Positions 9,780 to 27,241 of a stretch of DNA of 64,000 nt are shown one piece after another (the first letter of the stretch is position 1; every line of letters begins with the position of its first letter). The translations under genes were made by a program, and so were the position numbers. The stretch covers positions 248,001-312,000 of the forward strand of contig NZ_CP091456.1 in the NCBI RefSeq assembly GCF_023611925.1. The letters run 5' to 3'. The notes under the pieces were generated by a model. It was not told the DNA's origin. It ran no database searches and saw nothing but the letters and a program-made list of their open reading frames with translations. This DNA comes from Avibacterium sp. 20-132. GTDB lineage: Bacteria; Pseudomonadota; Gammaproteobacteria; Enterobacterales; Pasteurellaceae.

Positions 9780-11012
9780 CTATCCACCAATTTTTTCTTC
9801 AGGCAAAATAACTTTATTGTAAAAGCTGCCGTTAAGTTGGGTTTTATGTAAATGGTAAAGATGATAAGCTTGGAATGCCTCTGCATCAGGTTTTTGCGGA
9901 TTATGCCAAAATTCTTCCAATGAGCCTTGATGAGTGATATCAGGAATGTCGTAATGAGCACGTCCGAGTGTAAGCACGGGCATATTATGGATTAACGCTG
10001 ATAAACCACTTGTGCTGTTGAGTGTTACCATACCTTTCCCGTGGCGAAGTAACACGGGCATTGGAATATCATAGACATAAAACAACCGCTCTTTTAATTC
10101 GGGGTATTTAGAGAGATAACGTGTAATAATATGCTTATAACTGATAAATCCCCTATCCATCGGATGATGTTTTACAATCAACGTGAGTGAATGAGGGGCG
10201 TACTTTACAAAAGAATCTAATACGTAAATTAAAAACTGCTCCACACTTTCAAAATCACAATGTACTTTTACTTGGCTATCATCATACACTTGCAGCGGTA
10301 AAATATAAAAATCACCTAATTTATTTTGGTCAATTTTACGGATAAAAAATTTTTCTTTTGTAGCATAATAAATATGCTTTATTCCTGAAATAAGCCATAA
10401 CTTTATATAATAATTAAGATTATAAATACGATGGTGTTTATAGTGAGGGAAGTAGTTTGCTTTATTTCTTGCGACAACATAATATTTTGTAGCAAGTTTC
10501 GCCATTGGGAAAAACCCGTTTGCAACAGGAATAGGTTGAGGATTTTGGGATAAATCTTTAACTTGTTGTAAAAAGAATTGTTTATCTCGTGGCAATGATG
10601 AATAGGCATTTACGCCTTCTTTTTCTAAGGTAACATAATGTGGACGAAAATACCCTTCTTCAAACACCCAAAAGGCACATCCTAATTTTTTAGTTACTGC
10701 CTTTGCGATACGATGGTAACGGCGATTATCTCCAAAACACACTATTGTATCAATGTTATGCTCTTTGCAAAACTGCAATAAAAATGCATCAAAGTGCTCT
10801 AATGTGTTGTTATAGTCAAAAATAAATTGATTTTTAAGTGCGGTGGAAAAAAAGAATTTATCCCCTGCATTAAAATTTAATTTATATACTGTTTTTTGCT
10901 GTATTTCCGATAACCAATCAGCAAACTCTTTAAAAAAATGTCCAACAGGTCCTTGTAATAATAAAATCCGTTTTGAGCTTACCACTAATTCGTTTAAATT
11001 ATTTACAACCAT
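9780..11012 (-). CDS. kpsS: Capsule polysaccharide beta-Kdo transferase, KpsS/PhyB/LipB family
   Basis: KpsS adds the first beta-Kdo to lysophosphatidylglycerol, starting the poly-Kdo linker that anchors and allows export of group 2-type capsules. The 410-residue protein shows family features: LLLQGPVGHFF near the N-terminus, FEEGYFRPHYVTLE, a VKHHPMDRG block and TLNSTSGLSAL. It is the last gene of the leftward capsule operon, directly after kpsC, the standard pairing. The frame carries a further 25 codons beyond the TAG stop (see findings). Confidence 0.87.
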   Translation of the reverse strand: MVVNNLNELVVSSKRILLLQGPVGHFFKEFADWLSEIQQKTVYKLNFNAGDKFFFSTALKNQFIFDYNNTLEHFDAFLLQFCKEHNIDTIVCFGDNRRYHRIAKAVTKKLGCAFWVFEEGYFRPHYVTLEKEGVNAYSSLPRDKQFFLQQVKDLSQNPQPIPVANGFFPMAKLATKYYVVARNKANYFPHYKHHRIYNLNYYIKLWLISGIKHIYYATKEKFFIRKIDQNKLGDFYILPLQVYDDSQVKVHCDFESVEQFLIYVLDSFVKYAPHSLTLIVKHHPMDRGFISYKHIITRYLSKYPELKERLFYVYDIPMPVLLRHGKGMVTLNSTSGLSALIHNMPVLTLGRAHYDIPDITHQGSLEEFWHNPQKPDAEAFQAYHLYHLHKTQLNGSFYNKVILPEEKIGG

Positions 11013-11036
11013 TGTGTTCCCTTAGGTATAAAATAG

Positions 11037-13067
11037 CTATTTCAGCCAAAATGTGCGTAAAAAGTAACAATATTTCCCTATTTTTTTGCTTAACCAACTC
11101 TTATATAAGCCCGTATCTTTCAATTGATTTTTTTGTTCAAACAATATCTTAACTGCGGTGCTTGCATTGGTTAATTGCATTGTATTAGGGTTAAGGTAAA
11201 GTGGATAGTATAACAGAGTTCCAGCGATTAACTGCGTTAATGTTAATTTTCTTTTTCTGCGCGGTAACGTATAAGCATCAATGGTTAATCCCCAATGGGC
11301 ATAAAAAGGTGAACCGTAACAATATACCGTTTTACCCCGCAATAGCGCTTCAAAACCGGCTAAGGACGTCATTGTATGTACTTCATCGACCGCTTGAATA
11401 CAATCTAAAATATTCGCATCAGTAACAATTTGATCAGCATAGGTTAATGCTTGTTCTTGTGTGACATTACCTTTTCGGTTTCCACTTAATACATCTGGAT
11501 GTGGTTTATAAATAATATAAGCATCAGAATGAGCTTTTCTAACCTGTTGTAATAAGGTGAGATTTGATTGACATTTTGGTGAACCAAAACGAATAGAGGC
11601 ATCATCTTCTACTTGCCCTGGCACTAAAAGGATTTTTTTCTCCGTATTTGGACGTGCAAAGCCAGTAGAACCTACATTATATTTACCGATATTCGCTTGG
11701 ATTAATTGTTGCTGTATTTCTCGTGCTACATATTCATCTTTTTCTGAAAAATCTGCATTTTGCAAAATAGATTCTAATTGCGAAGGTTGTTGCGGATTAA
11801 AATAAATCCCCAAAGGATCCACCACTAAAGAAAGTGGTGCAACAAGGTTAGAACCCAGTCCAACGGAACGAATAAAGCCATCTTCCATTCGCCAAATTGG
11901 AATATTATTTTGTTCAGCGTAGGTAATAAATTCATCTTTACCTTGTCCCCATAACAATAATTTTGCATTTTCACCCAGCGAGATTTTCTTAAATTTAGAA
12001 AACGAACGGACGAAATGCAATTGACAATTTGGCAAGTGAAAAAAAGGTTTTAATACCGTTTTTTTCCACAAAGAAAGTCCAATACAATAAAAATCGCCTA
12101 CTAATACAGATTGCCAATGCTTAACCCAACTTAGATAATGAATGACATCAAAAATATCGCCAGTTTCACCCGTAAACGGATTAATATAGCGGCTATACTG
12201 AAAATAAGCGGCATAAAACACTTCATTTAACGCACGCGAGTTGCGGCGTTGTTGTGTGATCAGTTCAGCAACAAAAGGGTGTCGATCATCGGTTAATCCC
12301 CAGCCGGCAAACCAAGGCACACCAAAGGTTACGACTTCTTTGCCTTGTAGTAATGCTTCAAATCCCATTTGGGATGTAACGCAATACACTTTATCTACCT
12401 GCGATAACAAGGTTGGTGGATTGATGTCTTGGCTAATAATTCTCACACGCGGTTGATCTAATAAATCAGTTAGATATCCACGTTTCTTTCCTGCAATCAC
12501 ATCAGGATGGGTTTTCACCCAAATCTCAGCACTGGGGTTTTCTTGTAAAGCTGATTGCAACATCTGACGGAAACTATTCCCATCAGCCAAACCATATTGC
12601 ACCGCCATATCACCAAATGTTTGATCAATAACTAATACAATGTGATTTTTAGGCTCTGTAGCTATTGGCTCACAAGGTGCGTGATTATATTTGGATAATT
12701 GCCATTCACGAATCAATGCCATTGCTTGATGAGACTGCTCGACTTGCTCATCATTTAAGTTGCAATCAGCAATTAACTTTTCCAGCCGTGAAGGCTTTTC
12801 TGCCGCATAGTAAATACCCACATCATCCACAACCAAAGAAAATGGTGGGTATCCTTCAACCCCTAATCCGGTAGAACGCAGAAAGCCGTCTTCAATTAAT
12901 ATACATGTATAATTAAAGAAATTCCCTAGCCACTTAGCTCTTTTTCCAGAAAATTTTAATCCCCAACCAATAATATATTTCTTTTCAGTTAAATACTTTT
13001 CCTTTTCTAAAAAAGTAAATAGCTTCGGAATTTTCTTTATGGCAAAAGAAGGGATTAATAGGCTCAT
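11037..13067 (-). CDS. kpsC: Capsule polysaccharide beta-Kdo transferase, KpsC/PhyA/LipA family
   Basis: KpsC carries two related Kdo-transferase modules that extend the poly-beta-Kdo linker of capsule. The duplication is visible. Each half has a GWG/LWGQG-type start, an EDGF(L/I)RS(T/V)GLG motif, a LSLVVDxxGIY block and a KTHPDV or KPHPDV motif. Length, about 676 residues, fits full-length family members. The frame can start with TTG at 13082, inside the end of the preceding gene. The ATG at 13067 gives MSLLIPSF and is preferred. Confidence 0.9.
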   Translation of the reverse strand: MSLLIPSFAIKKIPKLFTFLEKEKYLTEKKYIIGWGLKFSGKRAKWLGNFFNYTCILIEDGFLRSTGLGVEGYPPFSLVVDDVGIYYAAEKPSRLEKLIADCNLNDEQVEQSHQAMALIREWQLSKYNHAPCEPIATEPKNHIVLVIDQTFGDMAVQYGLADGNSFRQMLQSALQENPSAEIWVKTHPDVIAGKKRGYLTDLLDQPRVRIISQDINPPTLLSQVDKVYCVTSQMGFEALLQGKEVVTFGVPWFAGWGLTDDRHPFVAELITQQRRNSRALNEVFYAAYFQYSRYINPFTGETGDIFDVIHYLSWVKHWQSVLVGDFYCIGLSLWKKTVLKPFFHLPNCQLHFVRSFSKFKKISLGENAKLLLWGQGKDEFITYAEQNNIPIWRMEDGFIRSVGLGSNLVAPLSLVVDPLGIYFNPQQPSQLESILQNADFSEKDEYVAREIQQQLIQANIGKYNVGSTGFARPNTEKKILLVPGQVEDDASIRFGSPKCQSNLTLLQQVRKAHSDAYIIYKPHPDVLSGNRKGNVTQEQALTYADQIVTDANILDCIQAVDEVHTMTSLAGFEALLRGKTVYCYGSPFYAHWGLTIDAYTLPRRKRKLTLTQLIAGTLLYYPLYLNPNTMQLTNASTAVKILFEQKNQLKDTGLYKSWLSKKIGKYCYFLRTFWLK

Positions 13068-13068
13068 A

Positions 13069-14064
13069 TTATGACAATCCAATTACATTTAAAATTTGTT
13101 GGATTCTATGCTCCCAAGTATGGTTTGCTAAAACGTAATCAGAGCCAGCTTTTGCTCTTTCTAGATCCTCTTTATTTGGCCCATATTTTAAGCGAGCAAA
13201 TAGTTCTTTCATTTCATCAGGATTATTTACTATGTAGCAATAATCGGAAAAGAGACGTTGCACAGATAGAGCAGGTGTGGTTATGGCAATACCTCCACAA
13301 GCTAAAATTTCCACTAATCTGCGAGAAAACATAGTAGCTGAGTCAGTAATTGTATTTACGTTCAACGATACTAGATAATCTTTATAAACTTGAGCTGTTT
13401 GTTGATATTCCAGTGCAGGGAAAATATCCATATTAGGTAATATAGGGTAACGATAGTTAGGTGATTTTCGATCGGAATTACGATCAAATATAGTTAAGCC
13501 AAGACCAGTTTCAGATGCTGAATGAAATAATTGATTTTGCCATTCTCTACGTAAGGAGTGGATGTGATGGCTATAGCTTCCCACAAAATTAGCTCGGTTA
13601 TATTTAAAATTAAAACCGGTAAATGAGTGAAATTTAGGTTGTACAGCAAACATTAATGTATGTACTGAGGCATTTTCACCCATAATAGCCTTATATCTGG
13701 GAATACAATTTTCATCTACAGTAAACACATGATCAAAATGTTTAGCAGAATCAATAAAACGATCAAAATGAACACTGTCTTCTTTATTCCAGAAGACAGT
13801 AGGAATTCCTTTATCCTTTGCTCTTTCAACTAAACGTCGTAATGCATCATTATTGCGTTTAGGATGATCTGGATAAGAAGCTATCTTATATTTCCAACGA
13901 TTTTTATAGCCTTGCCAGGCGGACTCAACTAGTAAAAAATCAATATTTTTCATACTCTGGTAAGCGCTCAAAATATTACTATTAATATACTGAGTTATCA
14001 CTGAGTTAGAAATTAACAAAGATGAGCTAGTCAACTTATCCGAAATCAATAAAATATTAATCAT
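13069..14064 (-). CDS. CgeB-like glycosyltransferase (capsule locus)
   Basis: The 331-residue protein resembles the CgeB/GT-B type glycosyltransferases. It has a DUF3880-like N-terminal half with VFWNKEDSVHFDRF at about 95-108. The C-terminal half contains LNVNTITDSATMFSRRLVE and a CGG turn. It is clearly paralogous to the first glycosyltransferase domain of the gene at 16781-18976. Donor and acceptor are unknown; in this operon it is expected to act on the capsule repeat unit in the cytoplasm. It overlaps the upstream gene by eight bases and ends just before kpsC. Confidence 0.75.
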   Translation of the reverse strand: MINILLISDKLTSSSLLISNSVITQYINSNILSAYQSMKNIDFLLVESAWQGYKNRWKYKIASYPDHPKRNNDALRRLVERAKDKGIPTVFWNKEDSVHFDRFIDSAKHFDHVFTVDENCIPRYKAIMGENASVHTLMFAVQPKFHSFTGFNFKYNRANFVGSYSHHIHSLRREWQNQLFHSASETGLGLTIFDRNSDRKSPNYRYPILPNMDIFPALEYQQTAQVYKDYLVSLNVNTITDSATMFSRRLVEILACGGIAITTPALSVQRLFSDYCYIVNNPDEMKELFARLKYGPNKEDLERAKAGSDYVLANHTWEHRIQQILNVIGLS

Positions 14065-16780
14065 TAATATAGAGGACCTCTGTGGACATATTATTTTTGA
14101 GATTCTCTATATTAGAGAATAGCATGAAATTGGTAAAAATGACTCTAGCTGCTTTGCCCCAATTCCATTTTTCAACATTCTTCAATGCGGTGAGACTATA
14201 ATCAATTCTTATTTCATCTTGAATATTTTCATTTTTTAAATTATACACAACATTAACATTTTTATATTTGTTTAATGGGATATGTACTTGCTGCCCATTA
14301 ATAGATAATTTTAATGAAAAACGTTTTTCTAGCTCTTCGCTAAAATGCGGAACCTTTATTATAAATGAAAGTGCTTTTTGAGATGCTTTTCTAGGAATAG
14401 TAAAGTGTAAATCATAACCATCATTAACATACATAGGATTTTTAGAAATATAAATATCTATGGCTTTTGTAGTAATATTCTTTATTATTTCAATATTTTT
14501 TAAACTTCCTAAAGTAATGATTTCAGCCATTTCAATAAAAGTATAAAGACCATTAGAAACTTTCTTTCTCTCGCTGAATTGGTTATTAGTCAATAGTGAG
14601 AAAAATTTATTCTGAGATAGATCTGGAGTGTAATAATTAATATTGGGTTCATTGTTGATATCAAACGTCATAATTTGATTACCCGCATGTTTCTTCCTTG
14701 GATAATCACTAACAGTAATTTTCTGATTAATAAGTATTGATAAAGTTGAGTCTTGCAATTCAACAGGATAAATATTTTTTAATACACTAGGATAAAAACA
14801 GTCTTCTGACTGAACACTATGATCAGAAAAATAATCTATTAGTCTTTGAAAATTTTGCTTTGCAGTAACAGAATTAAATTGAATATTTCTTTTAGATAAT
14901 TGAGTTATCACAAATTTAAATGAATCAAAATGAAGCATAAAAGTTATACCAGGAAAAAATGCTCCTTTTTTAGGCGAATTCTCAATTTTATCAAGTATTT
15001 TTTTTACCCAGCCAGAATAACTAAAAAACTCATCAATATTAATTTCATTTTGATCTAATTCATAAAACATTGAAAACAATACAAATTCAGCACATTTAGT
15101 ACAGGAACAGCACCATTTTGTGTTTATATCAGTTGTTGATTCACACATAACGAGCATTTTATAAAAATTAGGATTGCTCTTTGCTAAATATCCAAATCCA
15201 GATAATTCTGTCATATGTTGATTAGCATTAAAGATAGTTAATCTTCTATTAGAAATATATGTTGAATAAAATGAAGATATTGCCTTGATGTAATTACTTT
15301 GAGAACGTTTAAACCCAAAAGTTTCTTTGTTATCTAAACTATTATAATAGTGACAAAACTCATAACTAAAGGTCAAATAATCAAAACAATTCAGCCATGC
15401 TAAAACGCCCAGGGGGGCAAAATATAATTCTAAATGATAGTCAGGAATAGCAGAACGAGCATTTGTCTTTATTTTAATAACATCAACATTAAATTTATTT
15501 AAAATAGGATTAAGAATTAATTTATCTCTTCTTTTTTCTAGTTCTTCTACATTATTGTGTTCCGCAGGTATCACAAAAGAAATTAACTTTATGTTTTTTA
15601 TTTCAGGATTTTTTGAAAATATATCTAATGCAGAATAGGAATCTTTTCCTCCACCATATAAGATGCCAATTGTACTTTCATCTTTAAGGAAGTGAGATTT
15701 TATTATTGTATTATTATGTAAATTTGCAAAATAAGTATTTTTGAGGTCATGATAGCTCAGCCAAAATGATGCAATCTCAGTTGAGATAGGAGCTTCTGTA
15801 ATTATAATATTTGTAGTTTTTAGATTTTTCAGTTTATTTAATAATAATCCAATTACAGTGTTATAATGAATGTCAATTGGAACTTGTGAAATATCTATAT
15901 CATAGTAATCAACAAAAAAGTTATCAGCCATATAATTGGCTTCATAAGTAATAGTCCAAGAGAAAAAAACTTGGTTACCAATTACTTCTGGTGTTTTTAT
16001 GTAGATAAAATTTGAGAATTCTGTAGAAATTGTAGTAGCTGGATTCATCTCTTTTTCCTTAATGCTATATAAACTTTTTAAAGTTGATATTGTATTTAAA
16101 TATAATTCATCTGTATAGTGAAAAGGACTTAATCCCCAAGTATGTTGTCTTTTGGCAATAAATTTATCATGTATAATTATACTACCATATTGTTGAATAG
16201 CCTTTTCTATTACTATATACTGTTTGTTAAGGAAAATATTTGCTTTTTCTATTCTATTTTTAATTTCAATGTCTTTTCCTTCATCAACTTTTGATGTCCA
16301 AAATACCTTATTTAGAATAATTTTTGATAAAAAATTATATTTTTTCGCAACCTGAATAAATTCATCAAAACCTTTTTTCCATTCTTCAAACCAAGTATCA
16401 GTCCACGCTTCAATAGTGTTACCTTTATCTTTATTAACTTTTAAAAAATTAGTGTTTTTAAGTTCATCAGATAAAAGAACTTTCTCACCTGAGAAAAATT
16501 TAAAGATATCAAATCTATCATCAATTAAATCTAATATAAGATAGTCAAATGTTTGTGTTGAGATAACTTTTTTAAATTCTTTCGAAAAATCAGCTCCAAC
16601 AATTTTTTTCTGAAAAGGAGAAGTAAGAGCCGATGTATAATTATCTTCTATTTCGTTTGAATCAAAAGCTGTTGCAAGGCTACTTCTTGCAAAATATCTT
16701 ATTAAGTTAAAAGAATCACTTTCATTAGCAAATGTGAATGCATCTCTAGTTACACAACTACCAAAAATAATAATATTCAT
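14057..16780 (-). CDS. Fusion of SGNH-type (DUF6270-like) and PP-loop ATPase-like domains, capsule locus
   Basis: I do not recognise this 907-residue protein as a named enzyme. Residues 1-240 begin IIFGSCVTRDAF, with Gly7-Ser8 placed as in block I of SGNH hydrolases. They contain HTWGLSPFHY with His221 as a possible catalytic histidine; this resembles DUF6270 proteins of capsule loci. Residues about 370-600 carry a PP-loop motif, YGGGKDS at 375-381, and a cysteine cluster (Cys546, 557, 558, 560, 563) before AEFVLF, as in QueC- or MurL-like PP-loop enzymes. Residues about 690-907 look beta-rich. It starts one base after the upstream gene stop. Predicted cytoplasmic: no signal peptide or membrane segment. 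A modification role on the polysaccharide or its precursor is inference. Confidence 0.65.
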   Translation of the reverse strand: MNIIIFGSCVTRDAFTFANESDSFNLIRYFARSSLATAFDSNEIEDNYTSALTSPFQKKIVGADFSKEFKKVISTQTFDYLILDLIDDRFDIFKFFSGEKVLLSDELKNTNFLKVNKDKGNTIEAWTDTWFEEWKKGFDEFIQVAKKYNFLSKIILNKVFWTSKVDEGKDIEIKNRIEKANIFLNKQYIVIEKAIQQYGSIIIHDKFIAKRQHTWGLSPFHYTDELYLNTISTLKSLYSIKEKEMNPATTISTEFSNFIYIKTPEVIGNQVFFSWTITYEANYMADNFFVDYYDIDISQVPIDIHYNTVIGLLLNKLKNLKTTNIIITEAPISTEIASFWLSYHDLKNTYFANLHNNTIIKSHFLKDESTIGILYGGGKDSYSALDIFSKNPEIKNIKLISFVIPAEHNNVEELEKRRDKLILNPILNKFNVDVIKIKTNARSAIPDYHLELYFAPLGVLAWLNCFDYLTFSYEFCHYYNSLDNKETFGFKRSQSNYIKAISSFYSTYISNRRLTIFNANQHMTELSGFGYLAKSNPNFYKMLVMCESTTDINTKWCCSCTKCAEFVLFSMFYELDQNEINIDEFFSYSGWVKKILDKIENSPKKGAFFPGITFMLHFDSFKFVITQLSKRNIQFNSVTAKQNFQRLIDYFSDHSVQSEDCFYPSVLKNIYPVELQDSTLSILINQKITVSDYPRKKHAGNQIMTFDINNEPNINYYTPDLSQNKFFSLLTNNQFSERKKVSNGLYTFIEMAEIITLGSLKNIEIIKNITTKAIDIYISKNPMYVNDGYDLHFTIPRKASQKALSFIIKVPHFSEELEKRFSLKLSINGQQVHIPLNKYKNVNVVYNLKNENIQDEIRIDYSLTALKNVEKWNWGKAARVIFTNFMLFSNIENLKNNMSTEVLYIND

Positions 16781-18976
16781 TTAAACTACCGTAATCTCTC
16801 TTGCTAATTCATTTCCAATAAACTCACCTTTTTCTGTAAAAAAGTTATCGCTTACTTGCCAAGTATGATTATTGATATCTTTTGCTCGATATACAATAAA
16901 ATTAAACGGATCAGCTACATACATTTTTATCCCTAATTTATTTGCTTGTTCTAATATATTGGAGTCCTCTCCTCTATTTAGATTACCAAATTTTAGTTTA
17001 TCTAATGCTTTTCTAGAAAAAACTAATGTTGCTCCTGTTAAGAAATTAGTCTCTAGGTGATGCTGGCCTTTAAATCGTACATAAGTTTTATCAAGCGATT
17101 CTAAATAGATAAATATTTCTTTCTTACCTACTATACCATAGTCTCCAAACTTGAATGGTATTAGCATATCCTGAAGATAATGAGGAAAATAAAAATCATC
17201 ATCATCAAATTTTGCAACATATTCACCTGTTGTAAGATGAATTGCTTGATTTAATCGATTTCCAAGAGTATCATCGCTGTCATTTTTAATGATATGAACA
17301 TTGATAAATTTCTTATCTGATTTATTAATTTTAGATTTTAATTCACCGATTTGTTCATCTGAATAATTCTGTGCGATGATAATAAGTTCGATATTAGGAT
17401 AAACTTGCTGTGTGACATTCTCGACAATTCTATCAATAAATTTGGGGCGATTAGATGCCATTACAATACTAGCTAAAGGTTGATATTGCTCTATCTTTTG
17501 CCCAAGAGCATTAACAATTTGTATTGCTCTTTGCTCATAAGTATGATAGAGCATCACTTCTCTATATCCTCTATGTGATAATCTTAGCCATTCCCATTCA
17601 TTATTGAGCAAACGATCAGCAATTTTTTTCGCCTCCTTTCCTGTTCTAGCTATTTGAACAATCCCTTTAAATTGTTTTTCTATTGCTAATGAAGGAGTTG
17701 AAATCACGGGTGTTCCACAAGCTAATAACTCATATACTCGACGCGACATCATCGTAGGAGAGTCTGTTATTGTATTAACATTCAAAAAAATCTTAAATTT
17801 ACGATATACATTTACTATTTCTTTAAATGGAACTGCTGGACGAATATATTTTCTATATTTTCTAGGATAGGCATAGCGTTTATTATCAAGTTGAGACATT
17901 CTATCATAAATAACCCCCTTGCAGCTTTTAATAGCTGGTAGTAATGCATCCATTTGTTTCTTACGATCATCATGACCAACGCTATAGTATGAACCGGCAA
18001 AACAAATATTTTCTTGTTCAGTTCTAAATCTATTAGCAGGATTACAAATATTAATATTAGCTGCAAATAGCAATGCCTCTACTTTAGCATTAGGGACATC
18101 TCGTTGATAATCCGCTACTTTGTTACTATCTGTAGTGAATATAAAATCACATTTTTTGGCTATAGGAAGAAATTTATCATAATGCATAGGATCTTCTTTA
18201 TTCCAAAATATAACTGGGAAATTCCTATTTTTTGAAATTTCAAGTGCTTTAAGAAGTGCTTGTGCATTATTATGTTGTAAGTTAGGTGATGTAAATGCAT
18301 ACTCCCACGCTCCAAAGTTACCTTTCCAGCAACTTTCAATAAAGAAACCTAATGAGCTTGAACCTTTTATTTGCTGTTCATAAGATGCTTTATTAAGTGG
18401 AAAAAGTCTAAACTCGCTCCCGAATGACACATGTGAAATTTCATCTAAAATTGAAATAAATCTGAATCCATATTGTTTTTTAAATTTCCCTTCTATAACA
18501 CTAAAATCTGGGAGAGTTTTAGATGAGGATATAGTTTTAGGCGAATCCTTTCGTTTCTTAGCTAACTTTCTTATATTCCAAAGTGTTGTAGGTAAATTAT
18601 AAAAATTACTCCATGATTTTGTACTATGGATAAGAGCATAACCTAACTTAAAAGAGAGTGTATTTTCAACATTCTTTTTAGCTTGAGCTATTTTTTCTGC
18701 TGTATTAGCTAAATCTTTTTTTAATTTAATGATAGTATGTTCTTGTTCAGAATTAGCTTTTTGTAAGGTTTCTAATTTTAACTGAAGTGATTTTATTGTA
18801 GAAAGTTCATCAAAATGTTGATTCTGTTTTTTAATTATAAAATTAAAAGATTGAATAGACTCTTGATGTAAATCAGATACAGCCTTCTTAATTAGGTTTA
18901 AGTCTTCAGCAAGATTTAAATTATCGGAAGATTGTTTTTCTTGTATAAATTTATTTCTTTTTTTAGTCTTTTTCAT
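16781..18976 (-). CDS. Two-domain glycosyltransferase (CgeB-like GT-B plus GT2), probable capsule polymerase
   Basis: The 731-residue protein has a predicted coiled coil at about 50-105. A CgeB-like transferase domain follows (about 165-495, with FWNKEDPMHYDKF and VNTITDSPTMMSRR). The last part is a GT2-type GT-A domain (about 500-715). The GT2 domain shows SIVMASNRP, the metal-binding DDDD at 591-594 and a catalytic-type ED at 670-671. Two transferase domains in one chain are characteristic of capsule polymerases that alternate two sugars. Together with wecB and wecC, one domain probably transfers ManNAcA; the second sugar is unknown. The gene follows wecC with a short gap. Base composition is very AT-rich compared with the flanks. 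Confidence 0.75.
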   Translation of the reverse strand: MKKTKKRNKFIQEKQSSDNLNLAEDLNLIKKAVSDLHQESIQSFNFIIKKQNQHFDELSTIKSLQLKLETLQKANSEQEHTIIKLKKDLANTAEKIAQAKKNVENTLSFKLGYALIHSTKSWSNFYNLPTTLWNIRKLAKKRKDSPKTISSSKTLPDFSVIEGKFKKQYGFRFISILDEISHVSFGSEFRLFPLNKASYEQQIKGSSSLGFFIESCWKGNFGAWEYAFTSPNLQHNNAQALLKALEISKNRNFPVIFWNKEDPMHYDKFLPIAKKCDFIFTTDSNKVADYQRDVPNAKVEALLFAANINICNPANRFRTEQENICFAGSYYSVGHDDRKKQMDALLPAIKSCKGVIYDRMSQLDNKRYAYPRKYRKYIRPAVPFKEIVNVYRKFKIFLNVNTITDSPTMMSRRVYELLACGTPVISTPSLAIEKQFKGIVQIARTGKEAKKIADRLLNNEWEWLRLSHRGYREVMLYHTYEQRAIQIVNALGQKIEQYQPLASIVMASNRPKFIDRIVENVTQQVYPNIELIIIAQNYSDEQIGELKSKINKSDKKFINVHIIKNDSDDTLGNRLNQAIHLTTGEYVAKFDDDDFYFPHYLQDMLIPFKFGDYGIVGKKEIFIYLESLDKTYVRFKGQHHLETNFLTGATLVFSRKALDKLKFGNLNRGEDSNILEQANKLGIKMYVADPFNFIVYRAKDINNHTWQVSDNFFTEKGEFIGNELAREITVV

Positions 18977-19001
18977 AAAGCTTTACCTAGATATAAATTA
19001 T

Positions 19002-20270
19002 TTAAGCCCAAATTCCTTTTGTATCTATAATAGCCACATCATTAGAGAAATCAGGCTTATTCTCCATAAATTCTTTATGATTAACCAATAGTACTGCTAC
19101 ATCTGCAATTTCTTGACTCTCTATATAATCGACTAGATTGATTTCTTTTTTACCATGATGTTCTATGTCTTTGTAGTAGTTAGGTTCTACTGCATAGACT
19201 TGGTTCGGGTAAAGATCCATGAGCTTTTCAGTAATCATTAAGGCTGGGCTTTCGCGTAAATCATCAATATCTGGTTTGAATGCCAAGCCATAGCATACGA
19301 TTTTTAAATCATGAATGGATTTACTCGTTTGCTTTGCCACTTTTGTAGCCGCATTTTTTACTTGTTCAATCACCCATTCAGGTTTACTATCGTTTACTTC
19401 ACGAGCAGATCTTACAATTTTTGCTAGATCTGGTGTTTTATCAACAATAAACCAAGGATCTACAGCAATGCAATGTCCGCCCACTCCACAACCAGGCTGT
19501 AAAATATTAACTCTAGGGTGGCGATTTGCTAAAGAAATTAGTTCCCATACATTGATATTTAAGCGGTCTGAAATTAAAGAAAGTTCATTTGCAAAGGCAA
19601 TATTTACATCGCGAAAAGCATTTTCTGTTAATTTACTCATTTCTGCGGTTCTGGCGTTAGTTTTTACTAATTCGCCTTGGACAAAGATTTTGTAAATTTC
19701 AATCGCTTTTTCTGAACAAATGTCTGTAATACCACCAATGATTCGATCATTTTCTACAAGCTCTTTAATCACTTGTCCTGGTAATACACGTTCAGGACAA
19801 TAAGCCACATAGATATCAGGCTCACCATTATCTGATTCATGGGGGAATTTTAATTCAGGTCGAGCTTCCGATAGCCAATTAACTAGCTGTTCAGTTGTGC
19901 CTACTGGAGAAGTTGATTCTAAAATAATAGTATCTCCTTTCTTTAAGACGGGAGCTAATGCTTTAGAAACTGCTTCAATATAGCTTAGATCGGGTTCATG
20001 ATCGCCTTTAAAGGGGGTAGGCACTGCAATAACAAATGCATCAGCAGGTTCCGGTTTAATAGTTGCATATAATTGCCCACTAGCCACTGCTTCGGAGACA
20101 ATCTCTTGTAATCCTGGTTCTACGATATGAATTTGTCCCTGGTTAATTGTATCAACCGCATATTGATTAACATCGACTCCAATTACTTTCGCACCATTAG
20201 TTGCAAACATAGCAGCGGCAGGTAATCCAATATAACCTAAACCAATAACAGAAATAATTTTTTGACTCAT
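19002..20270 (-). CDS. wecC: UDP-N-acetyl-D-mannosamine dehydrogenase
   Basis: This NAD-dependent enzyme oxidises UDP-ManNAc at C6 in two steps to UDP-ManNAcA. The 422-residue protein has the N-terminal Rossmann motif GLGYIGLPAAAMFA and the LESTSPVGTTE block. The catalytic cysteine region is QPGCGVGGHCIAVDPWF. The C-terminal domain contains YGLAFKPDIDDLRESP. It follows wecB by nine bases. In this operon the product is expected to feed the capsule rather than enterobacterial common antigen, since no other ECA genes are present. Confidence 0.94.
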   Translation of the reverse strand: MSQKIISVIGLGYIGLPAAAMFATNGAKVIGVDVNQYAVDTINQGQIHIVEPGLQEIVSEAVASGQLYATIKPEPADAFVIAVPTPFKGDHEPDLSYIEAVSKALAPVLKKGDTIILESTSPVGTTEQLVNWLSEARPELKFPHESDNGEPDIYVAYCPERVLPGQVIKELVENDRIIGGITDICSEKAIEIYKIFVQGELVKTNARTAEMSKLTENAFRDVNIAFANELSLISDRLNINVWELISLANRHPRVNILQPGCGVGGHCIAVDPWFIVDKTPDLAKIVRSAREVNDSKPEWVIEQVKNAATKVAKQTSKSIHDLKIVCYGLAFKPDIDDLRESPALMITEKLMDLYPNQVYAVEPNYYKDIEHHGKKEINLVDYIESQEIADVAVLLVNHKEFMENKPDFSNDVAIIDTKGIWA

Positions 20271-20279
20271 ATTTTTCCC

Positions 20280-21404
20280 TTAATATTGTAACAATGTATT
20301 AACAATTTGCTTTGCCGATGTACCATCACCATATGGATTTTTTGCTTCTGACATACTTTGGTATTCTTTAGGATTATCCATTAGCTTAGAGAACTCTTCA
20401 ACAATGGAATCAATATTTGTTCCTACAAGCCTTACCGTGCCAGCTTCCACTGCGGCAGGACGTTCAGTAGTATCACGTAATACTAAAACTGGTTTTCCTA
20501 ATGTAGGCGCTTCTTCTTGGATTCCACCTGAATCACTCAAGATAATATGAGCATTTGACATTAGATAAGTGAAAGGTAAATACTCTTGAGGTTCAATAAG
20601 ATGAATGTTTGGATGATTCGATAAAAATTCCTCAAAGGTATTACGTACAGCAGGATTTAAGTGTAGTGGTAGTACGAATTGTAGTTGTGGATATTTATCA
20701 GCTAATAGGTGAATCGCTTTAGCTATGTTTTTAATTCCATTACCATGATTTTCACGACGATGAGCTGTGATTAAAATCAACTTAGATTGTTCATCATTCT
20801 TATTAACAAACGGAAACAAAGACTCCATTTGTGCTTTGATGTTTACATCATTCAATTTTTCTCTAACTTCTAGTAATGCATCTATAACAGTATTACCTGT
20901 AACAAAGATTTTATTTTCATCAATGTTTTCCTTAAGGAGATTATTTTTGGAACCAACAGTTGGTGAAAAATGGAGAGTTGACAATACCGAAGTCAAACAG
21001 CGATTAGCTTCTTCTGGCCAAGGAGAGTATAAATTGCCAGTTCTTAGCCCTGCTTCAACATGACCAATTTTTATTCTTTTATAGAATGCCGCGAGGCTTG
21101 TTGCAAAAGTTGTTGTTGTATCTCCATGAACAAGAACAAAATCAGGTCTAAAGTCCTCCAATATCGGAGATAATCCTTCAATGATAGATGTAGTGATTTG
21201 TTCTAATGTTTGCTTTTTCTGCATGACATCCAAATCATAATCGGGCTGGATATCAAATAAGTTCAGCACCTGATCTAACATTTCTCTATGCTGTGCGGTT
21301 ACACAAACTTTAGAAATGATATTTGCATGGCGCTTTAATTCATGCACCAATGGAGCCATTTTTATCGCTTCAGGCCTAGTTCCAAAGACTGTTAATACTT
21401 TCAT
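20280..21404 (-). CDS. wecB: UDP-N-acetylglucosamine 2-epimerase (non-hydrolysing)
   Basis: It interconverts UDP-GlcNAc and UDP-ManNAc, supplying the substrate of WecC. The 374-residue protein starts [17 protein letters not shown]. It includes [34 protein letters not shown] and the [11 protein letters not shown] block that binds the UDP. It is the first gene of the leftward capsule operon. A good promoter lies about 25 bases upstream of its start. Confidence 0.95.
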
Positions 21405-21436
21405 ATACTATTACCATCCAATAATTTAAATTTTTT

Positions 21437-21465
21437 ATCGTATCGTAGTATAATTATTTTGTCAA
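21437..21465 (-). promoter_or_regulatory. Promoter of the leftward capsule operon (wecB)
   Basis: On the minus strand a consensus -35 TTGACA (21460-21465) is followed by a 17-base spacer and -10 TACGAT (21437-21442). The predicted transcript start is about 25 bases upstream of wecB. No JUMPstart/ops element was seen. Confidence 0.6.
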
Positions 21466-21553
21466 TTTATGATTAATATTTTTACTCAAGACTAAGTAGC
21501 CTATCTAATATTAAGTACCAAGTGACTATTCCAATTCCAATCTTTTTTTTGTT

Positions 21554-21581
21554 TTGCGCTAAACTAATGCAATTTTATTAT
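21554..21581 (+). promoter_or_regulatory. Candidate promoter of the rightward capsule export operon
   Basis: TTGCGC (21554-21559), a 16-base spacer and TATTAT (21576-21581) lie upstream of the small frame at 21597 and of bexD. The match is moderate and the region is generally AT-rich. Confidence 0.4.
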
Positions 21582-21596
21582 TGATAAGTAAGAAAA

Positions 21597-21695
21597 ATGA
21601 GCCATAAATCATATTTATGTATTATACTATTGCCGATCCTTTTTATTTCTCCTATCATCTATTGGATAATTTATGATGGAAAATACATTATATAA
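21597..21695 (+). CDS. Possible 32-residue hydrophobic peptide upstream of bexD
   Basis: An ATG frame encodes a short peptide starting MSHKSYLCIILLPILF and ending with charged residues. It would form one membrane helix. It lies between the candidate promoter and bexD, ending 18 bases before the bexD start, so it would be the first frame on the export transcript. The ribosome-binding site is weak (AAGAAAA). It may be a chance frame in AT-rich leader DNA. I recognise no family. Confidence 0.25.
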   Translation: MSHKSYLCIILLPILFISPIIYWIIYDGKYII

Positions 21696-21713
21696 AAATT
21701 CTAAGGAAAACCT

Positions 21714-22865
21714 ATGCACAAATCTCTCATTACAATCACTTGCTGTTTACTTGTATCCTGCGCAAATTTGCCCGCATCAGGACCAAATAAAGGCAGCATT
21801 GAAAAAGTAGAACAGCAAAATGCCAATATTCCTGCTGTCCAGTTAATTGAGTTAGATGATAAAGTTGTAAAAACTAATTCTTTCCAAACTCAATCTTTTA
21901 AACAGCTATCTCCTTCTAAGCAAAGTTATCAGGGCGTGGTAAGCTCAGGTGATTTACTTGATATTACCCTGTGGGAAGCACCTCCTGCCATTTTATTTGG
22001 TAGCGTGTTAAATGAAAGTGGTATATCATCTAGCCAAAGTACGCATTTGCCCGAGCAAATGGTCAGCAATAATGGACGCATTACCATTCCATTTGTTGGT
22101 TCTTTGCGTGTGGCAGGAAAAACGCCAGAGCAAATTCAAACTGACATTGTTAATCGTTTACAGTCTATCGCAAATCAGCCGCAAGCGATTGTGCGCGTTG
22201 TAAAAAATAATTCTGCGAATGTAACTGTATTAACTAAATCATCAGCTGTGCGTATGCCATTAACAACTTATGGTGAACGTGTGCTAGATGCGGTAACCGC
22301 AGCAGGTGGAACAAGCGGAGAATTACAAGATATTGCAGTGCAACTTACTCGCAGTCATCAAGTAAGAACCATTTCTTTAGCAAAATTAGCACGGGATCCA
22401 CAAGAAAATATCCTTTTACGTTCCGGTGATGTCCTAAGTTTAATAAATAATCCACTTTCATTCACGGCAATGGGTGCGGTAGGAAATAGTAAAGAAATTC
22501 GTTTTTCAGCAGAAGGTTTAAGCTTAGCAGAGGCAATAGGTCGTCTTGGCGGTTTGAATGATAATCGTGCCGATCCAAGAGGTGTATTTATCTTCCGTTA
22601 TGTTCCATTTGAAGAGATGTCATTAAATAAACAAAATGAATGGGAAGCCAAGGGATATCACAACGGAATGAAAATTCCAACAGTATATCAAGCAAATTTA
22701 CTTGAACCTCAATCAATGTTTTGGATTCAACAATTTCCAATTAAAGATAAAGATATTGTTTATGTATCTAATGCACCATTAGCTGAATACCAAAAATTTA
22801 TTCGTATGATCTTTGGAACAGTAAACCCAGCATTATCAACGATCAATAGCATTAATAGAATGTAG
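21714..22865 (+). CDS. bexD: Capsule export outer-membrane lipoprotein (Wza-like; BexD/HexD/CtrA)
   Basis: This is the outer-membrane polysaccharide export channel of the capsule exporter. The 383-residue precursor has a signal peptide with a lipobox at VSC-A (cysteine about residue 16). It carries a polysaccharide-export domain around GVVSSGDLLDITLWEAP and repeated SLBB-like segments such as GGTSGELQDIAV. AAGGA precedes the ATG at a good distance. It heads a bexDCBA-order operon as in H. influenzae and P. multocida hexDCBA. Confidence 0.9.
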   Translation: MHKSLITITCCLLVSCANLPASGPNKGSIEKVEQQNANIPAVQLIELDDKVVKTNSFQTQSFKQLSPSKQSYQGVVSSGDLLDITLWEAPPAILFGSVLNESGISSSQSTHLPEQMVSNNGRITIPFVGSLRVAGKTPEQIQTDIVNRLQSIANQPQAIVRVVKNNSANVTVLTKSSAVRMPLTTYGERVLDAVTAAGGTSGELQDIAVQLTRSHQVRTISLAKLARDPQENILLRSGDVLSLINNPLSFTAMGAVGNSKEIRFSAEGLSLAEAIGRLGGLNDNRADPRGVFIFRYVPFEEMSLNKQNEWEAKGYHNGMKIPTVYQANLLEPQSMFWIQQFPIKDKDIVYVSNAPLAEYQKFIRMIFGTVNPALSTINSINRM

Positions 22866-22876
22866 GTATATAAAGA

Positions 22877-24010
22877 ATGGAACAAAATATTGATCAACCC
22901 ATTACAAAACGTAAGAAAAAATTGAATTTAAAGAAAATTAATCCACTATTGTGGATAACAGTGATCATTCCTACTTTCTGCTCAATTTTTTATTTTTCTA
23001 TCTGGGCTTCAGATGTCTATATTTCTGAATCTAGCTTTATTGTGCGTTCATCGCGTAGTCAAGCGAGTTTAGGCGGAATGGGGGCATTATTACAAAGCAT
23101 CGGCTTTGCACGCTCTCAAGATGATACTTTTACAGTGCAGGAATTTATGCGTTCTCGCAATGCCTTAAGCACCTTAGAAAATGATTTGCCACTTAGAAAA
23201 TATTATAACGAAGGGGATTTCTTTAGTCGTTTTGATCCGCTAGGGTTATTCAATTCCAAAGAGGCTTTTTATCAATATTTCCGTAATCACTTATCCATCA
23301 GTATTGATTCATTATCTGGCATTGCAACCTTGAGGGTGCGTACTTTTGATGCAACCTCAGCGCAACAAATAAACAATGCTTTACTTAATTTAGCAGAAAA
23401 ATTAGTAAATCAACTGAATGATCGTGCACGTAGAGATACCATTAAATTTGCAGAGCAATCGGTTAATGAGGCAGAAAATCACTTAACTCAAACCTCTGTC
23501 GCATTAAGTCAATATCGTGTTAAAAATGCAATCTTTGATGTAGCGAGCCAATCAGAATCTGTTTTAACGTTGGTACAGAAATTACAAAATGAATTAATTT
23601 CAATTCAAACTCAACTTGATCAAGTAAGAGCATTATCGCCGAATAACCCGCAAGTCAAAGTGTTACAAGCGAGACAAAAAAGTATTCGTGAAGAATTATC
23701 ACAGCAGTTAGATGTGGTATTTGAAGGGAAAAAATCTTTAACCACACAATCTGCCGAGTATCAGCGTTTGATTTTAGATGATACTTTAGCGAAGCAACAA
23801 TTAACTGCAGCGATATCAGCATTGCAAAGTGCAAAAGAAGAAGCAGGCAGACAGCAATTATATTTGGAAATTATTGCTAAACCTAATCATCCTGATTTGG
23901 CTTTAGAGCCACATCGTTTATACAATATTTTAGCAACATTGATTCTTGGCTTAGTGCTTTATGGTGTATTAACACTATTATTAGCAGGTGTGAGAGAGCA
24001 TAAAAACTAA
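22877..24010 (+). CDS. bexC: Capsule export inner-membrane/periplasmic protein (BexC/HexC/KpsE)
   Basis: This polysaccharide co-polymerase-type adaptor links the ABC transporter to the outer-membrane channel. The 377-residue protein has an N-terminal membrane segment (about 28-48) and a large periplasmic part with coiled-coil stretches (about 180-320). A second membrane segment lies near the C-terminus (about 350-370). The ESSFIVRSSRSQASLGGMG motif is typical of the family. Its stop overlaps the next start by one base. Confidence 0.9.
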   Translation: MEQNIDQPITKRKKKLNLKKINPLLWITVIIPTFCSIFYFSIWASDVYISESSFIVRSSRSQASLGGMGALLQSIGFARSQDDTFTVQEFMRSRNALSTLENDLPLRKYYNEGDFFSRFDPLGLFNSKEAFYQYFRNHLSISIDSLSGIATLRVRTFDATSAQQINNALLNLAEKLVNQLNDRARRDTIKFAEQSVNEAENHLTQTSVALSQYRVKNAIFDVASQSESVLTLVQKLQNELISIQTQLDQVRALSPNNPQVKVLQARQKSIREELSQQLDVVFEGKKSLTTQSAEYQRLILDDTLAKQQLTAAISALQSAKEEAGRQQLYLEIIAKPNHPDLALEPHRLYNILATLILGLVLYGVLTLLLAGVREHKN

Positions 24011-24807
24011 TGCAGTATGGTGAACAAACTTCATTACGAGAATCATTTCAGATTCAATGGCGAGTGTTAAAAGCATTATTGCTACGTGAAATTATTACTC
24101 GTTATGGGCGTAAAAATTTAGGGTTCTTATGGCTATTTGTCGAACCCTTTATGATGACCCTTGTGATTGTATTAATGTGGCACTTTTTTAGGGCTGATAG
24201 ATTTTCTACGCTAAATATTGTTGCTTTTGCTATCACAGGCTATCCATTATTAATGATGTGGCGTAATGCGTCTAATAGAGCTATTGGTGCAATTGATGCG
24301 AATATGGCCTTATTATATCACCGTAATGTTCGTCCTTTAGATACGCTTTTTTCCAGAATGACGTTGGAAATTATGGGGGCCACCGTTGCACAGATTTTGA
24401 TGCTTGCTTTTCTTGTAATGATTGGTTGGATTGAAATGCCAAACGATGTGCTATATATGCTTTTCGCTTGGTTTTTAATGGCGCTGTTTGCGATTGGTCT
24501 AGGTTTAATCATTTGTTCGCTAGCTTATTATTTAGAAGTTTTTGGTAAGATCTGGGGAACATTGACCTTTTTGATGTTTCCTATTTCAGGCGCATTCTTT
24601 TTAGTAAGCAGTTTACCTAGCAATGCTCAATCTATGTTGCTATGGTTTCCAATGATTCACGGTACAGAAATGTTTAGGCACGGCTATTTTGGCTCAAGCA
24701 TTGTGACAATGGAATCACCTAGTTACCTTCTTGCCTGTGATTTAGTCATGCTTTTAATTGGATTATTAATGGTACGCAGTTTTAGTAATAGGATTAATGC
24801 AAGATGA
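24010..24807 (+). CDS. bexB: Capsule ABC exporter permease (BexB/HexB/KpsM)
   Basis: The 265-residue protein is the membrane subunit of the capsule ABC-2 type exporter, with about six hydrophobic segments. Family blocks include [19 protein letters not shown] near the N-terminus and [17 protein letters not shown] near the C-terminus. It overlaps bexA by an ATGA junction, fitting equal production of the two exporter subunits. Confidence 0.93.
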
Positions 24808-25451
24808 TCAGTGTAGAAAATGTTTACAAGAAATATCACACAAGAACAGGCTCTGTCACAGTTTTAAACAATATTAATTTTAAACTGGAGAAAGGCGAAA
24901 AAGTAGGGATTTTAGGACGGAATGGTGCAGGTAAATCAACTCTAATTCGTTTAATGAGCGGGGTTGAAGCGCCAACAGCAGGTATTATTCGCCGTGAAAT
25001 GAGCATATCTTGGCCACTCGCTTTTAGTGGGGCATTCCAAGGGAGCTTAACGGGAATGGATAATTTGCGTTTTATTTGCCGAATTTATAATGCTGATATT
25101 GACTATGTAACAGCATTTACCGAAGCGTTCTCAGAATTAGGTAACTATCTTTATGAACCTGTAAGAAGTTATTCATCGGGAATGAAAGCGCGTTTAGCCT
25201 TTGCATTATCTTTATCCGTAGAGTTTGACTGCTATCTTATTGATGAAGTAATTGCCGTTGGGGATTCTCGCTTTAGTGCAAAATGTCGTTATGAGCTTTT
25301 TGAAAAACGCAAAGATCGTTCTATTATTCTGGTTTCTCACAGTCCTTCTGCAATTCGTGAATATTGTGATAATGCTAAGGTATTAGAAAAAGGAAAATTA
25401 TTAGATTTTCCTTCCATTGATGAAGCATATCAATATTACAACCAACAATAA
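24804..25451 (+). CDS. bexA: Capsule ABC exporter ATPase (BexA/HexA/KpsT)
   Basis: This is the nucleotide-binding subunit of the capsule exporter. The 215-residue protein has Walker [10 protein letters not shown], the signature YSSGMKARL, Walker [11 protein letters not shown] and the H-loop LVSHS. Length and the [18 protein letters not shown] block match KpsT-type ATPases. It is the last gene of the export operon, followed by a strong terminator. Confidence 0.95.
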
Positions 25452-25469
25452 TTAAAACTCGTTAAAAAA

Positions 25470-25503
25470 CCACCGCACTTTCTAAAGTGCGGTGGCTTTT
25501 TCT
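25470..25503 (+). terminator. Terminator of the capsule export operon, inverted uptake-sequence pair
   Basis: CCACCGCACTTT (25470-25481) pairs with AAAGTGCGGTGG (25484-25495), followed by a T-rich run. It marks the right edge of the capsule locus. Confidence 0.8.
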
Positions 25504-25509
25504 TAGATT

Positions 25510-26136
25510 TTATTCAATCCCAATCAGCTTATGTGTTTGAAGACTTAATTGCCATTTTGGTTTATTCGGGCGTTGGTTTAGTAAGCCTAATTGGGTAATT
25601 GTGTGGAGCAAATTCATTTCGCCATTGGTTTCGCAAGGTGAAAGGTAATAATGCTCTGCCTCAATTTGCTTTTCAATGAATGCACAAAATGCTTGTACAT
25701 CTGCATCTGCCACAATGCGAACTTCATTGGCTTGAGCAATACAGCGTTGGCGGTATTTCTCAACATAAGCACGCTTAGGGCTGGTGGCGATATAATCAAT
25801 TTGTGCGGGAATCGGTTTTAATCCATTGGTTTCAATGGCAAGAAAATAACCGTCCGCCTTAAGTTGCTCAAGCAATAAGCTAAGTTGCGGTTGAATCGTC
25901 GGCTCTCCTCCTGTGATAATAATATTTTTCGCAGAAAACAACCGCACTTTCGCTAAGATTTGCTGTAACGACCACGGCTCAAAATCATTGTAGGGCGTAT
26001 CGCACCAAGGACAAGTTAAATTACACTTTCCAAAGCGGATAAAAATACAAGGCATTCCCGTATTCGCCCCTTCGCCTTGCAAACTCTGGAAAATTTCTAC
26101 AATGGGATAGCTTGGATTAGAGATCAATTCCACCAT
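25510..26136 (-). CDS. queE: 7-carboxy-7-deazaguanine synthase
   Basis: This radical-SAM enzyme converts 6-carboxytetrahydropterin to 7-carboxy-7-deazaguanine in queuosine synthesis. The 208-residue protein starts with the substrate-binding FQSLQGEG motif. The cluster motif is CNLTCPWC, followed by ITGGEPT. Its start overlaps the queD stop by one base (TAATG). It is the third gene of the queC-queD-queE operon. Confidence 0.93.
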   Translation of the reverse strand: MVELISNPSYPIVEIFQSLQGEGANTGMPCIFIRFGKCNLTCPWCDTPYNDFEPWSLQQILAKVRLFSAKNIIITGGEPTIQPQLSLLLEQLKADGYFLAIETNGLKPIPAQIDYIATSPKRAYVEKYRQRCIAQANEVRIVADADVQAFCAFIEKQIEAEHYYLSPCETNGEMNLLHTITQLGLLNQRPNKPKWQLSLQTHKLIGIE

Positions 26137-27234: not shown

Positions 27235-27241
27235 AAAATTT

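Follow-up and report, generated by a model that had tools for sequence, protein, structure and literature searches.

A capsule locus around a 907-residue fusion protein

The window, i.e. the whole 64-kb stretch of DNA that was analysed, harbors a capsule locus with the following genes.

9780..11012, minus strand: Capsule_synth protein, KpsS-like (NF050054, 341 bits, below the cut-off of 600)
11037..13082, minus strand: Capsule_synth protein, KpsC-like by its size and two domains (Pfam)
13069..14064, minus strand: 331-aa CgeB-like glycosyltransferase (Pfam), with an 8-base overlap with the 907-aa gene
14057..16780, minus strand: 907-aa fusion protein with a DUF6270, a PP-loop and a C-terminal part (open reading frame, ATG start)
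16781..18976, minus strand: 731-aa two-domain glycosyltransferase (CgeB-like PF13524 and GT2; Pfam), probably the capsule polymerase
19002..20270, minus strand: wecC, UDP-ManNAc dehydrogenase, which makes UDP-ManNAcA (NF008286, 664 bits, cut-off 459)
20280..21404, minus strand: wecB, UDP-GlcNAc 2-epimerase (TIGR00236, 520 bits, cut-off 210)
21714..25451, plus strand: capsule export genes for a Poly_export protein, BexC/CtrB/KpsE (above the cut-off of TIGR01010), a KpsM-like permease and an ABC ATPase (from its translation)

The sequence-only reading had placed the 907-aa gene in a wecB/wecC capsule locus, and the Pfam and NCBIfam family matches agree with this. The genes follow one another in the order wecB, wecC, polymerase, 907-aa gene, 331-aa gene, kpsC-like and kpsS-like, the kpsC-like gene being separated from the export genes by five genes. 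The ATG of the 907-aa gene immediately follows the stop codon of the 731-aa polymerase gene, and the 331-aa protein shares 35% identity over 287 residues with the CgeB-like half of the polymerase. The G+C content of the 907-aa gene is 26.5%, compared to 37.8% for the 64-kb window. A true queC gene is located approximately 10 kb from the 907-aa gene in the same window. A known anti-phage component was also considered and rejected, with no PADLOC match for three proteins.

Modules of the fusion protein and their relatives

Within the 907-aa protein the following parts were distinguished.

16115..16768, minus strand: DUF6270 domain, residues 5-222 (Pfam), with Ser8, His213 and His221 invariant in five proteins
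14711..16033, minus strand: PP-loop module, about residues 250-690, matching free-standing homologues of 501-513 aa
15638..15655, minus strand: GGGKDS PP-loop motif, residues 376-381 (read from the translation)
15092..15145, minus strand: CE(x)9CxxCxKC cluster, residues 546-563, a possible Zn site of the QueC type, kept in homologues
14060..14710, minus strand: C-terminal domain, residues 691-907, without relatives in the loci fetched

The fusion of a DUF6270-like and a PP-loop domain in one chain, as read from the letters, is borne out by Pfam, by the motifs and by hhalign profile scores. All residues that had been singled out are present, namely Gly7-Ser8 (in GSC from residue 7), His221, GGGKDS at 376-381 and the cluster between 546 and 563 with cysteines 546, 557, 558, 560 and 563. 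Beyond DUF6270, a Pfam scan of the protein gave no match at E<=1. No Pfam or NCBIfam model matches the PP-loop part, and an NCBIfam scan of residues 240-907 gave no match. Comparison with PDB sequences yielded chance-level matches only (best E 0.16), as it did for the C-terminal domain, for which no Pfam family match was found either. That this domain is beta-rich, as stated in the sequence-only reading, is not borne out by these comparisons. Matches to PHROGs were weak and unrelated (best E 0.054).

Residues 5-222 belong to DUF6270 (PF19786; E 2.6e-54, 184.9 bits versus a cut-off of 27.5). The SGNH superfamily is marked by a catalytic Ser in block I and a His, usually within DxxH, in block V. 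Among five aligned DUF6270 proteins, the invariant residues include G7, S8, C9, H213, G216, P219 and H221. Ser8 and His221, the candidate SGNH residues, are found in all five, and the Asp position is occupied by Ser in four of them. SGNH families were absent from the Pfam matches of the five DUF6270 members at E<=10. On the level of motifs, DUF6270 may represent an SGNH-type acyl-transfer domain. A literature search retrieved no paper with the word DUF6270.

Two homologues of the PP-loop module were found, both free-standing: L003 (the same as L015) in genome G434, and L012 in a Bacillota genome. G376-S381, C546, E547, C557, C560, K562 and C563 are kept in both despite an identity of only 26-27%, and an SNE motif reads SNEF in L003 and L012 and SYEF in the 907-aa protein. 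The module appears to be rare. Among close relatives it was detected in one of 149, which is the genome itself. At class level, five of 369 matched at E<=0.01. Two of these, the own genome and G434, are real matches; L005 and L006 were rejected due to internal stops, and L004 because its 475-aa open reading frame lacks GGGKDS. The three matches among 398 at phylum level were the own genome and two with internal stops. In the order of G434 and in the phylum of G925, relatives were restricted to G434 (1/19) and G925 (1/398) themselves. None were detected in viral contigs (searched twice), in plasmids (searched with the 907-aa and the L012 protein), in phages (searched with the L012 protein) or, for the 907-aa gene at DNA level, in E. 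coli. This rarity may be overstated, since the contig scan relied on two narrow peptide patterns, by which one of 80 stretches was confirmed.

In profile comparisons with hhalign, the PP-loop module scored 46.4 against MurL, 45.4 against WbuX and 28.5 against QueC. In each case none of 150 shuffles reached the real score (maxima of 26.6, 21.6 and 22.7, respectively). The module scored at most 20.4 against seven non-PP-loop alignments, and known PP-loop families score 25.6-44.0 against one another. Unrelated profiles reached up to 26.2 against PP-loop families (CgeB versus WbuX; 12 comparisons). The scores for MurL and WbuX are well above every shuffle and every unrelated pair, which places the module in the PP-loop superfamily, whereas the score for QueC exceeds the shuffles but barely the top unrelated pair and is therefore weak when taken alone. 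The profiles did not include one MurL locus (L031), four WbuX loci (L034, L035, L036, L041) and one QueC locus (L025), in which the motif rule picked no open reading frame, nor L047-L051 and L072-L075 with partial or weak matches. Single-sequence NCBIfam matches of the homologues were weak (L003 to MurL, E 0.0034; L012 to WbuX, E 0.0032). Together, motif residues kept at such low identity and scores above all shuffles indicate a PP-loop signature beyond chance. Judged by its sequence, the module appears to be a new family whose nearest kin are MurL, WbuX and QueC, MurL and WbuX being closest and the kinship to QueC less clear. The sequence-only reading had likewise called the domain a PP-loop, naming QueC, asparagine synthetase and MurL as examples of such enzymes; the PP-loop assignment is supported.

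Each module also occurs without the other, DUF6270 in L016, L017, L018 and L023, and the PP-loop in L015 and L012. In L018 and L023 the genes are wecB, wecC, polymerase and DUF6270, and in wecB-wecC capsule loci of E. coli and Citrobacter DUF6270 alone takes the slot after the polymerase. E. coli loci occur both with DUF6270 (strain FDAARGOS_497) and without it (strain 510016). In L012, a relative of the 731-aa polymerase is followed after 15 bases by the PP-loop gene. The 907-aa protein thus fuses two modules that elsewhere each follow this polymerase type. As both are found apart from one another, in each case immediately behind a polymerase of this kind, a role as polysaccharide-tailoring enzyme, previously put forward as a possibility, is likely. 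In six of the eight species-level loci examined, the polymerase relative has a wecC-like gene nearby. Co-occurrence of homologues with wecB/wecC, which the sequence-only reading led us to look for, applies to DUF6270 (L018, L023), but to the PP-loop part in one of three cases only: neither free-standing homologue has a wecC-like sequence within 8-10 kb on each side. This goes partway toward homologues being mainly outside uronic-acid loci, a finding that the same reading had named as speaking against it. Both free-standing homologues lie near ATP-grasp genes, which could encode the amide-forming enzymes there.

A possible role in capsule tailoring

The reading that we favor is that the 907-aa protein tailors the capsule, with the PP-loop part adenylating the 6-carboxylate of ManNAcA for amide formation and the DUF6270 part adding a second modification. 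We give this reading a probability of roughly 0.4. The enzyme would be cytoplasmic and its PP-loop module would bind ATP at GGGKDS and adenylate a carboxylate. The most likely target is C6 of the ManNAcA made by WecB/WecC, either in UDP-ManNAcA or in the growing chain. Transfer of the acyl group to an amine, which could be ammonia or an amino acid, would then give an amide. The DUF6270 module would use Ser8 and His221 for a second modification, probably an ester (for example O-acetyl).

The outcome of the reaction does not follow from kinship, since MurL acts as an epimerase and the annotation of WbuX is N-acetyl sugar amidotransferase. Pasteurellaceae capsules are not known to contain L-GulNAcA, which a MurL-like epimerase would make from D-ManNAcA by adenylating the uronate carboxylate, removing the C5 proton with reprotonation from the opposite face, and hydrolysing the adenylate. 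MurL spends one ATP (to AMP) on a one-way epimerisation for which carboxyl adenylation was proposed (PMC8788868). It is the best-scoring family and the match covers the RWCGxCxKC cluster part, but the N-terminal domain of MurL is unmatched (12.7; 150 shuffles up to 15.8), and we consider epimerisation improbable. The fusion of a probable adenylating domain with a domain that carries invariant Ser and His would also suit two halves working in series: the PP-loop would adenylate an amino acid, which the serine of DUF6270 would then carry to a sugar hydroxyl as an ester. Such a transfer, otherwise conjectural, is quite unlikely given that each module is found without the other. Tight coupling to the polymerase and 331-aa transferase genes might instead point to an accessory role in polymerisation or in priming of the chain, or to a PP-loop half that is a regulatory ATP-binding remnant. 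However, the PP-loop and cysteine motifs are kept across distant homologues and the polymerase does without the PP-loop part in E. coli and Citrobacter, so a function other than tailoring has little probability. WbpG-type enzymes act with HisH/HisF-type partners, but a scan of nine genes at 9.8-24.0 kb showed no such family and the cysteine cluster is QueC/MurL-like; hence amidination of the N-acetyl group of ManNAcA with an untouched carboxylate is the least probable alternative, despite the WbuX profile score, the weak match of L012 to TIGR03573 (E 0.0032) and the membership of WbpG in the QueC superfamily (PMC13329287).

Returning to amide formation at C6, a broader proposal is that with this protein a QueC/MurL-type class that conjugates amino acids to uronic acid in surface polysaccharides is recognised for the first time. 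The same or a sister class would stand behind the amino-acid amides in the type d capsule of H. influenzae and the type B capsule of P. multocida, the Bacillota form would decorate another polysaccharide of a CgeB-GT2 polymerase, and here one chain would set both amide and ester. This proposal is doubtful as a whole.

Chemical descriptions of capsule uronic acids with amide-linked amino acids date back to the 1980s (PMC10627249, PMC13171606), and the threonine-adding gene of E. coli K54 is given as pending identification in a 2026 survey (PMC13171606). An open-licence literature search retrieved no enzyme for the type d or P. multocida B amides. With a candidate whose active site and polymerase partner are both defined, the question of the amide enzyme becomes testable. 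The candidate would extend the QueC-like superfamily by another polysaccharide branch beside WbpG and could be put to use in preparing defined capsule antigens.

Comparison with known systems

ManNAcA with amino acids amide-linked at C6 is reported for the capsules of H. influenzae d and P. multocida B (PMC10627249), in agreement with what the sequence-only reading had stated for type d. Region II of H. influenzae d comprises dcs1-5, of which dcs1, dcs2 and dcs5 resemble ecs1, ecs2 and ecs8 (PMC6790013). Region II and the locus described here, between its export genes and the kpsC-like gene, each have five genes. We take dcs1 and dcs2 to be probably epimerase and dehydrogenase.

WbpS/WbqG, of the asparagine synthase type, work by PP-loop chemistry. 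This ATP-dependent family converts uronic acids of O-antigens to their amides (PMC7468200). A uronamide synthase of the WbpS type was rejected for the 907-aa protein, in which no asparagine-synthase or glutaminase domain was found and DUF6270 is the N-terminal domain. With WbuX/WbpG it shares a PP-loop domain in surface-polysaccharide synthesis, but the WbuX match begins at the PP-loop and is limited to about 104 columns. TIGR03573 (cut-off 203.2 bits) does not match the 907-aa protein, and L012 scores 17.0 bits.

The cysteines of QueC are spaced C(x)8CxxCxxC and those of the Cap9 ligase CE(x)6CxxCxxC (PMC13329287). The PP-loop and C-terminal cysteine cluster resemble QueC/Cap9/QatC, with a spacing near-identical to QueC and Cap9 and the QueC profile score extending over the whole domain. 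The protein differs from QueC in GGGKDS versus SGGxDS and in CE(x)9CxxCxKC versus C(x)8CxxCxxC, and PF06508 does not match it at E<=10. Full MurL orthology was likewise rejected, as NF041275 (700-bit cut-off, whole length) does not match the 907-aa protein and gives 15.9 bits for L003. With MurL it nevertheless shares the GGGKDS loop, the SNE motif, an RWCGxCxKC-type cluster and the highest profile score; it differs in lacking a match to the N-terminal domain of MurL and in that its gene sits among capsule genes.

Organization and origin of the capsule locus

The 907-aa open reading frame proposed in the sequence-only reading is real. It lies in a line of genes consisting of wecB, wecC, a 731-aa glycosyltransferase (CgeB-like plus GT2), the 907-aa gene, a 331-aa glycosyltransferase and kpsC-like and kpsS-like genes. 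The features of the region are:

14057–16780, minus strand: gene of the 907-aa protein
16781–18976: 731-aa glycosyltransferase, the inferred capsule polymerase; its stop codon abuts the ATG of the 907-aa gene
13069–14064: 331-aa glycosyltransferase, in an 8-base overlap with the end of the 907-aa gene
from 21714: capsule export genes, in the opposite direction to the line from wecB to the kpsS-like gene
25510–27281: queE-queD-queC set adjoining the export genes (queE and queD named from their translations)
27237–27281: PreQ1 riboswitch, with the queE-queD-queC set
29535–29649, minus strand: glycine riboswitch aptamer, above the Rfam gathering score

The genuine QueC and the distant QueC-like domain of the 907-aa protein are thus encoded about 10 kb apart.

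The gene line from wecB to the kpsS-like gene and the export genes give the region the appearance of a group 2 type capsule locus, dependent on an ABC transporter, that should produce UDP-ManNAcA. The 331-aa transferase and the CgeB-like half of the polymerase are paralogous (35% identity over 287 aa), and counterparts of the 331-aa protein occur in the corresponding loci of E. coli and Citrobacter. As a candidate transition transferase, the 331-aa protein would prime the chain on the Kdo linker (transition transferases: PMC11666461; E. coli capsules: PMC13171606).

The G+C content of the 907-aa gene is 26.5%, compared with 37.8% for the window. Copies of AAGTGCGGT, the Haemophilus-type DNA uptake word, number 33 in the window against 0.39 expected, and ACAAGCGGT, the other uptake word of Pasteurellaceae, occurs twice against 0.36 expected, which suggests a source in the Pasteurellaceae. 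All 33 copies of AAGTGCGGT lie outside positions 10844–25472, a gap of 14.6 kb that takes in the greater part of the capsule locus. The gap and the low G+C content therefore suggest that the serotype region was imported.

The two modules of the 907-aa protein

Residues 5–222 match DUF6270 in Pfam (E 2.6e-54), and the rest of the protein has no other Pfam match at E≤1. Among others, G7, S8, C9, R12, D79, D84, H213, G216, P219 and H221 are invariant in five aligned DUF6270 members. These residues would suit an SGNH-like Ser-His enzyme, but the Asp usual before the SGNH His is Ser in four of the five members, and a Pfam search at E≤10 linked none of the five to an SGNH family; the SGNH assignment is plausible.

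Residues 240–907 match no Pfam or NCBIfam model at E≤10. Two free-standing homologues of the PP-loop module were found, L003 (513 aa, gammaproteobacterium) and L012 (501 aa, Bacillota MAG), which are 26–27% identical to it in the alignment. All three keep GGGKDS, SxEF, FxRS, CE(x)9CxxCxKC and then FFxxS. The profile of these three sequences was compared by HHalign with reference profiles of MurL (from 4 of 5 loci), WbuX (11 of 15 tried) and QueC (20 of 21 tried) and gave scores of 46.4, 45.4 and 28.5, respectively, which are relative and not calibrated database E-values. Column shuffles reached at most 26.6, 21.6 and 22.7, with 0 of 150 attaining the real score for any family. Seven unrelated alignments (wecC, wecB, CgeB, KpsC, KpsS, DUF6270 and YheCD) scored at best 20.4 against the three-sequence profile, and four of them gave at most 26.2 against the three PP-loop families (CgeB versus WbuX, 12 comparisons); the families scored 25.6–44.0 among themselves. 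Judged by these profiles, kinship with MurL and WbuX is clear and that with QueC, by score alone, weak. The PP-loop domain proposed earlier thus holds, and the 907-aa protein almost certainly contains this fold.

Gene neighbourhoods of the modules

Within the source organism's family, DUF6270 was detected in two of 140 genomes. In the second, G031, it forms a free-standing protein of 432 aa, encoded in a capsule locus (L016) together with genes of LicD and glycerophosphotransferase type. Near the DUF6270 gene, at 9949–13842 of L016, lies a gene for a 1297-aa protein in which TPR repeats are combined with glycerophosphotransferase and glycosyltransferase domains.

Each module is found alone behind relatives of the polymerase. 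In L012, the PP-loop gene starts at 9992, just behind a 603-aa relative (36% over 549 aa to the 731-aa protein) that ends at 9976; DUF6270 was not found in this locus. Behind the PP-loop gene, at 11560–15190, come a pair of ATP-grasp genes of the YheC/D type and a gene for a hexapeptide acyltransferase. On a Citrobacter plasmid (L018), the order is a 330-aa CgeB-like gene, wecB, wecC, a 920-aa polymerase relative and DUF6270, followed by a hypothetical gene, galU, another transferase and two capsule genes. E. coli locus L023 has a CgeB family protein, wecB, wecC, polymerase relative, DUF6270 and an ABC ATPase, with two capsule genes beyond on the other strand. E. coli 510016 carries the same wecB-wecC-polymerase locus with no DUF6270 behind the polymerase (L024, 5932–8890), so that the two form a natural pair as regards DUF6270. 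In Rossellomorea (L017), the polymerase relative is followed by one gene, DUF6270 and then a nucleotide-sugar dehydrogenase. Among 5426 E. coli genomes, 54 matched a DNA query made up of DUF6270 and a stretch of the polymerase gene from L018, 49 of them across 80% or more of the query length. Six of the 12 plasmid records that contain a polymerase relative supplied neighbourhoods, as did two of these 54 genomes.

Of eight species-level loci with a polymerase relative, six have a wecC-like sequence in its vicinity (L017, L018, L020, L021, L022 and L023; not L012 or L019). No such sequence was found within 8–10 kb of either free-standing PP-loop gene, at L012 or at L015 (the L003 neighbourhood). 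L015 contains heparinase II/III-type, LicD and ATP-grasp genes (10 of 32 ORFs scanned), the ATP-grasp gene about 3.5 kb from the PP-loop gene.

The 907-aa protein is a fusion of two modules, each of which elsewhere stands alone directly behind the same type of polymerase. We regard this as good evidence that both act on the product or substrate of the polymerase, and a tailoring role is probable.

Proposed chemistry and known systems

QueC works by adenylation, and C6 of ManNAcA is the obvious candidate for a free carboxylate in the capsule pathway. The best explanation, to which we tentatively give a probability of about 0.4, is that the PP-loop half would adenylate ManNAcA, that the adenylate would be converted to an amide and that DUF6270 would add an ester or similar group. 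MurL converts ATP to AMP, with carboxylate activation as adenylate proposed (PMC8788868); its N-terminal domain has no match in the window PP-loop family (score 12.7; 150 shuffles up to 15.8). QueC turns a carboxylate into an amide and then a nitrile, and Cap9 couples a carboxylate to a protein N-terminus, as proposed also for QatC (PMC13329287). WbpS belongs to enzymes that use ATP to amidate O-antigen uronic acids (PMC7468200). The cysteine spacings of QueC, C(x)8CxxCxxC, and Cap9, CE(x)6CxxCxxC, are close to that of the window family, whereas C(x)19CGxCxxRR of QatC is unlike it (PMC13329287).

No description of the DUF6270/PP-loop architecture was found in a search of open-licence papers. 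What looks new is the PP-loop family itself, together with the DUF6270 fusion and the association with CgeB-GT2 polymerases; its chemistry would belong to a known superfamily. Among known capsules, the ManNAcA carboxylate is linked to Ala, Ser or Thr in H. influenzae type d and to Gly in P. multocida B (PMC10627249). Region II genes of type d (sequence HQ424464.1; PMC6535587) reach dcs5, with dcs1/ecs1 and dcs2/ecs2 92–94% and dcs5/ecs8 87% alike (PMC6790013). Five is also the number of genes in the serotype region of the window, a parallel that serves as a lead.
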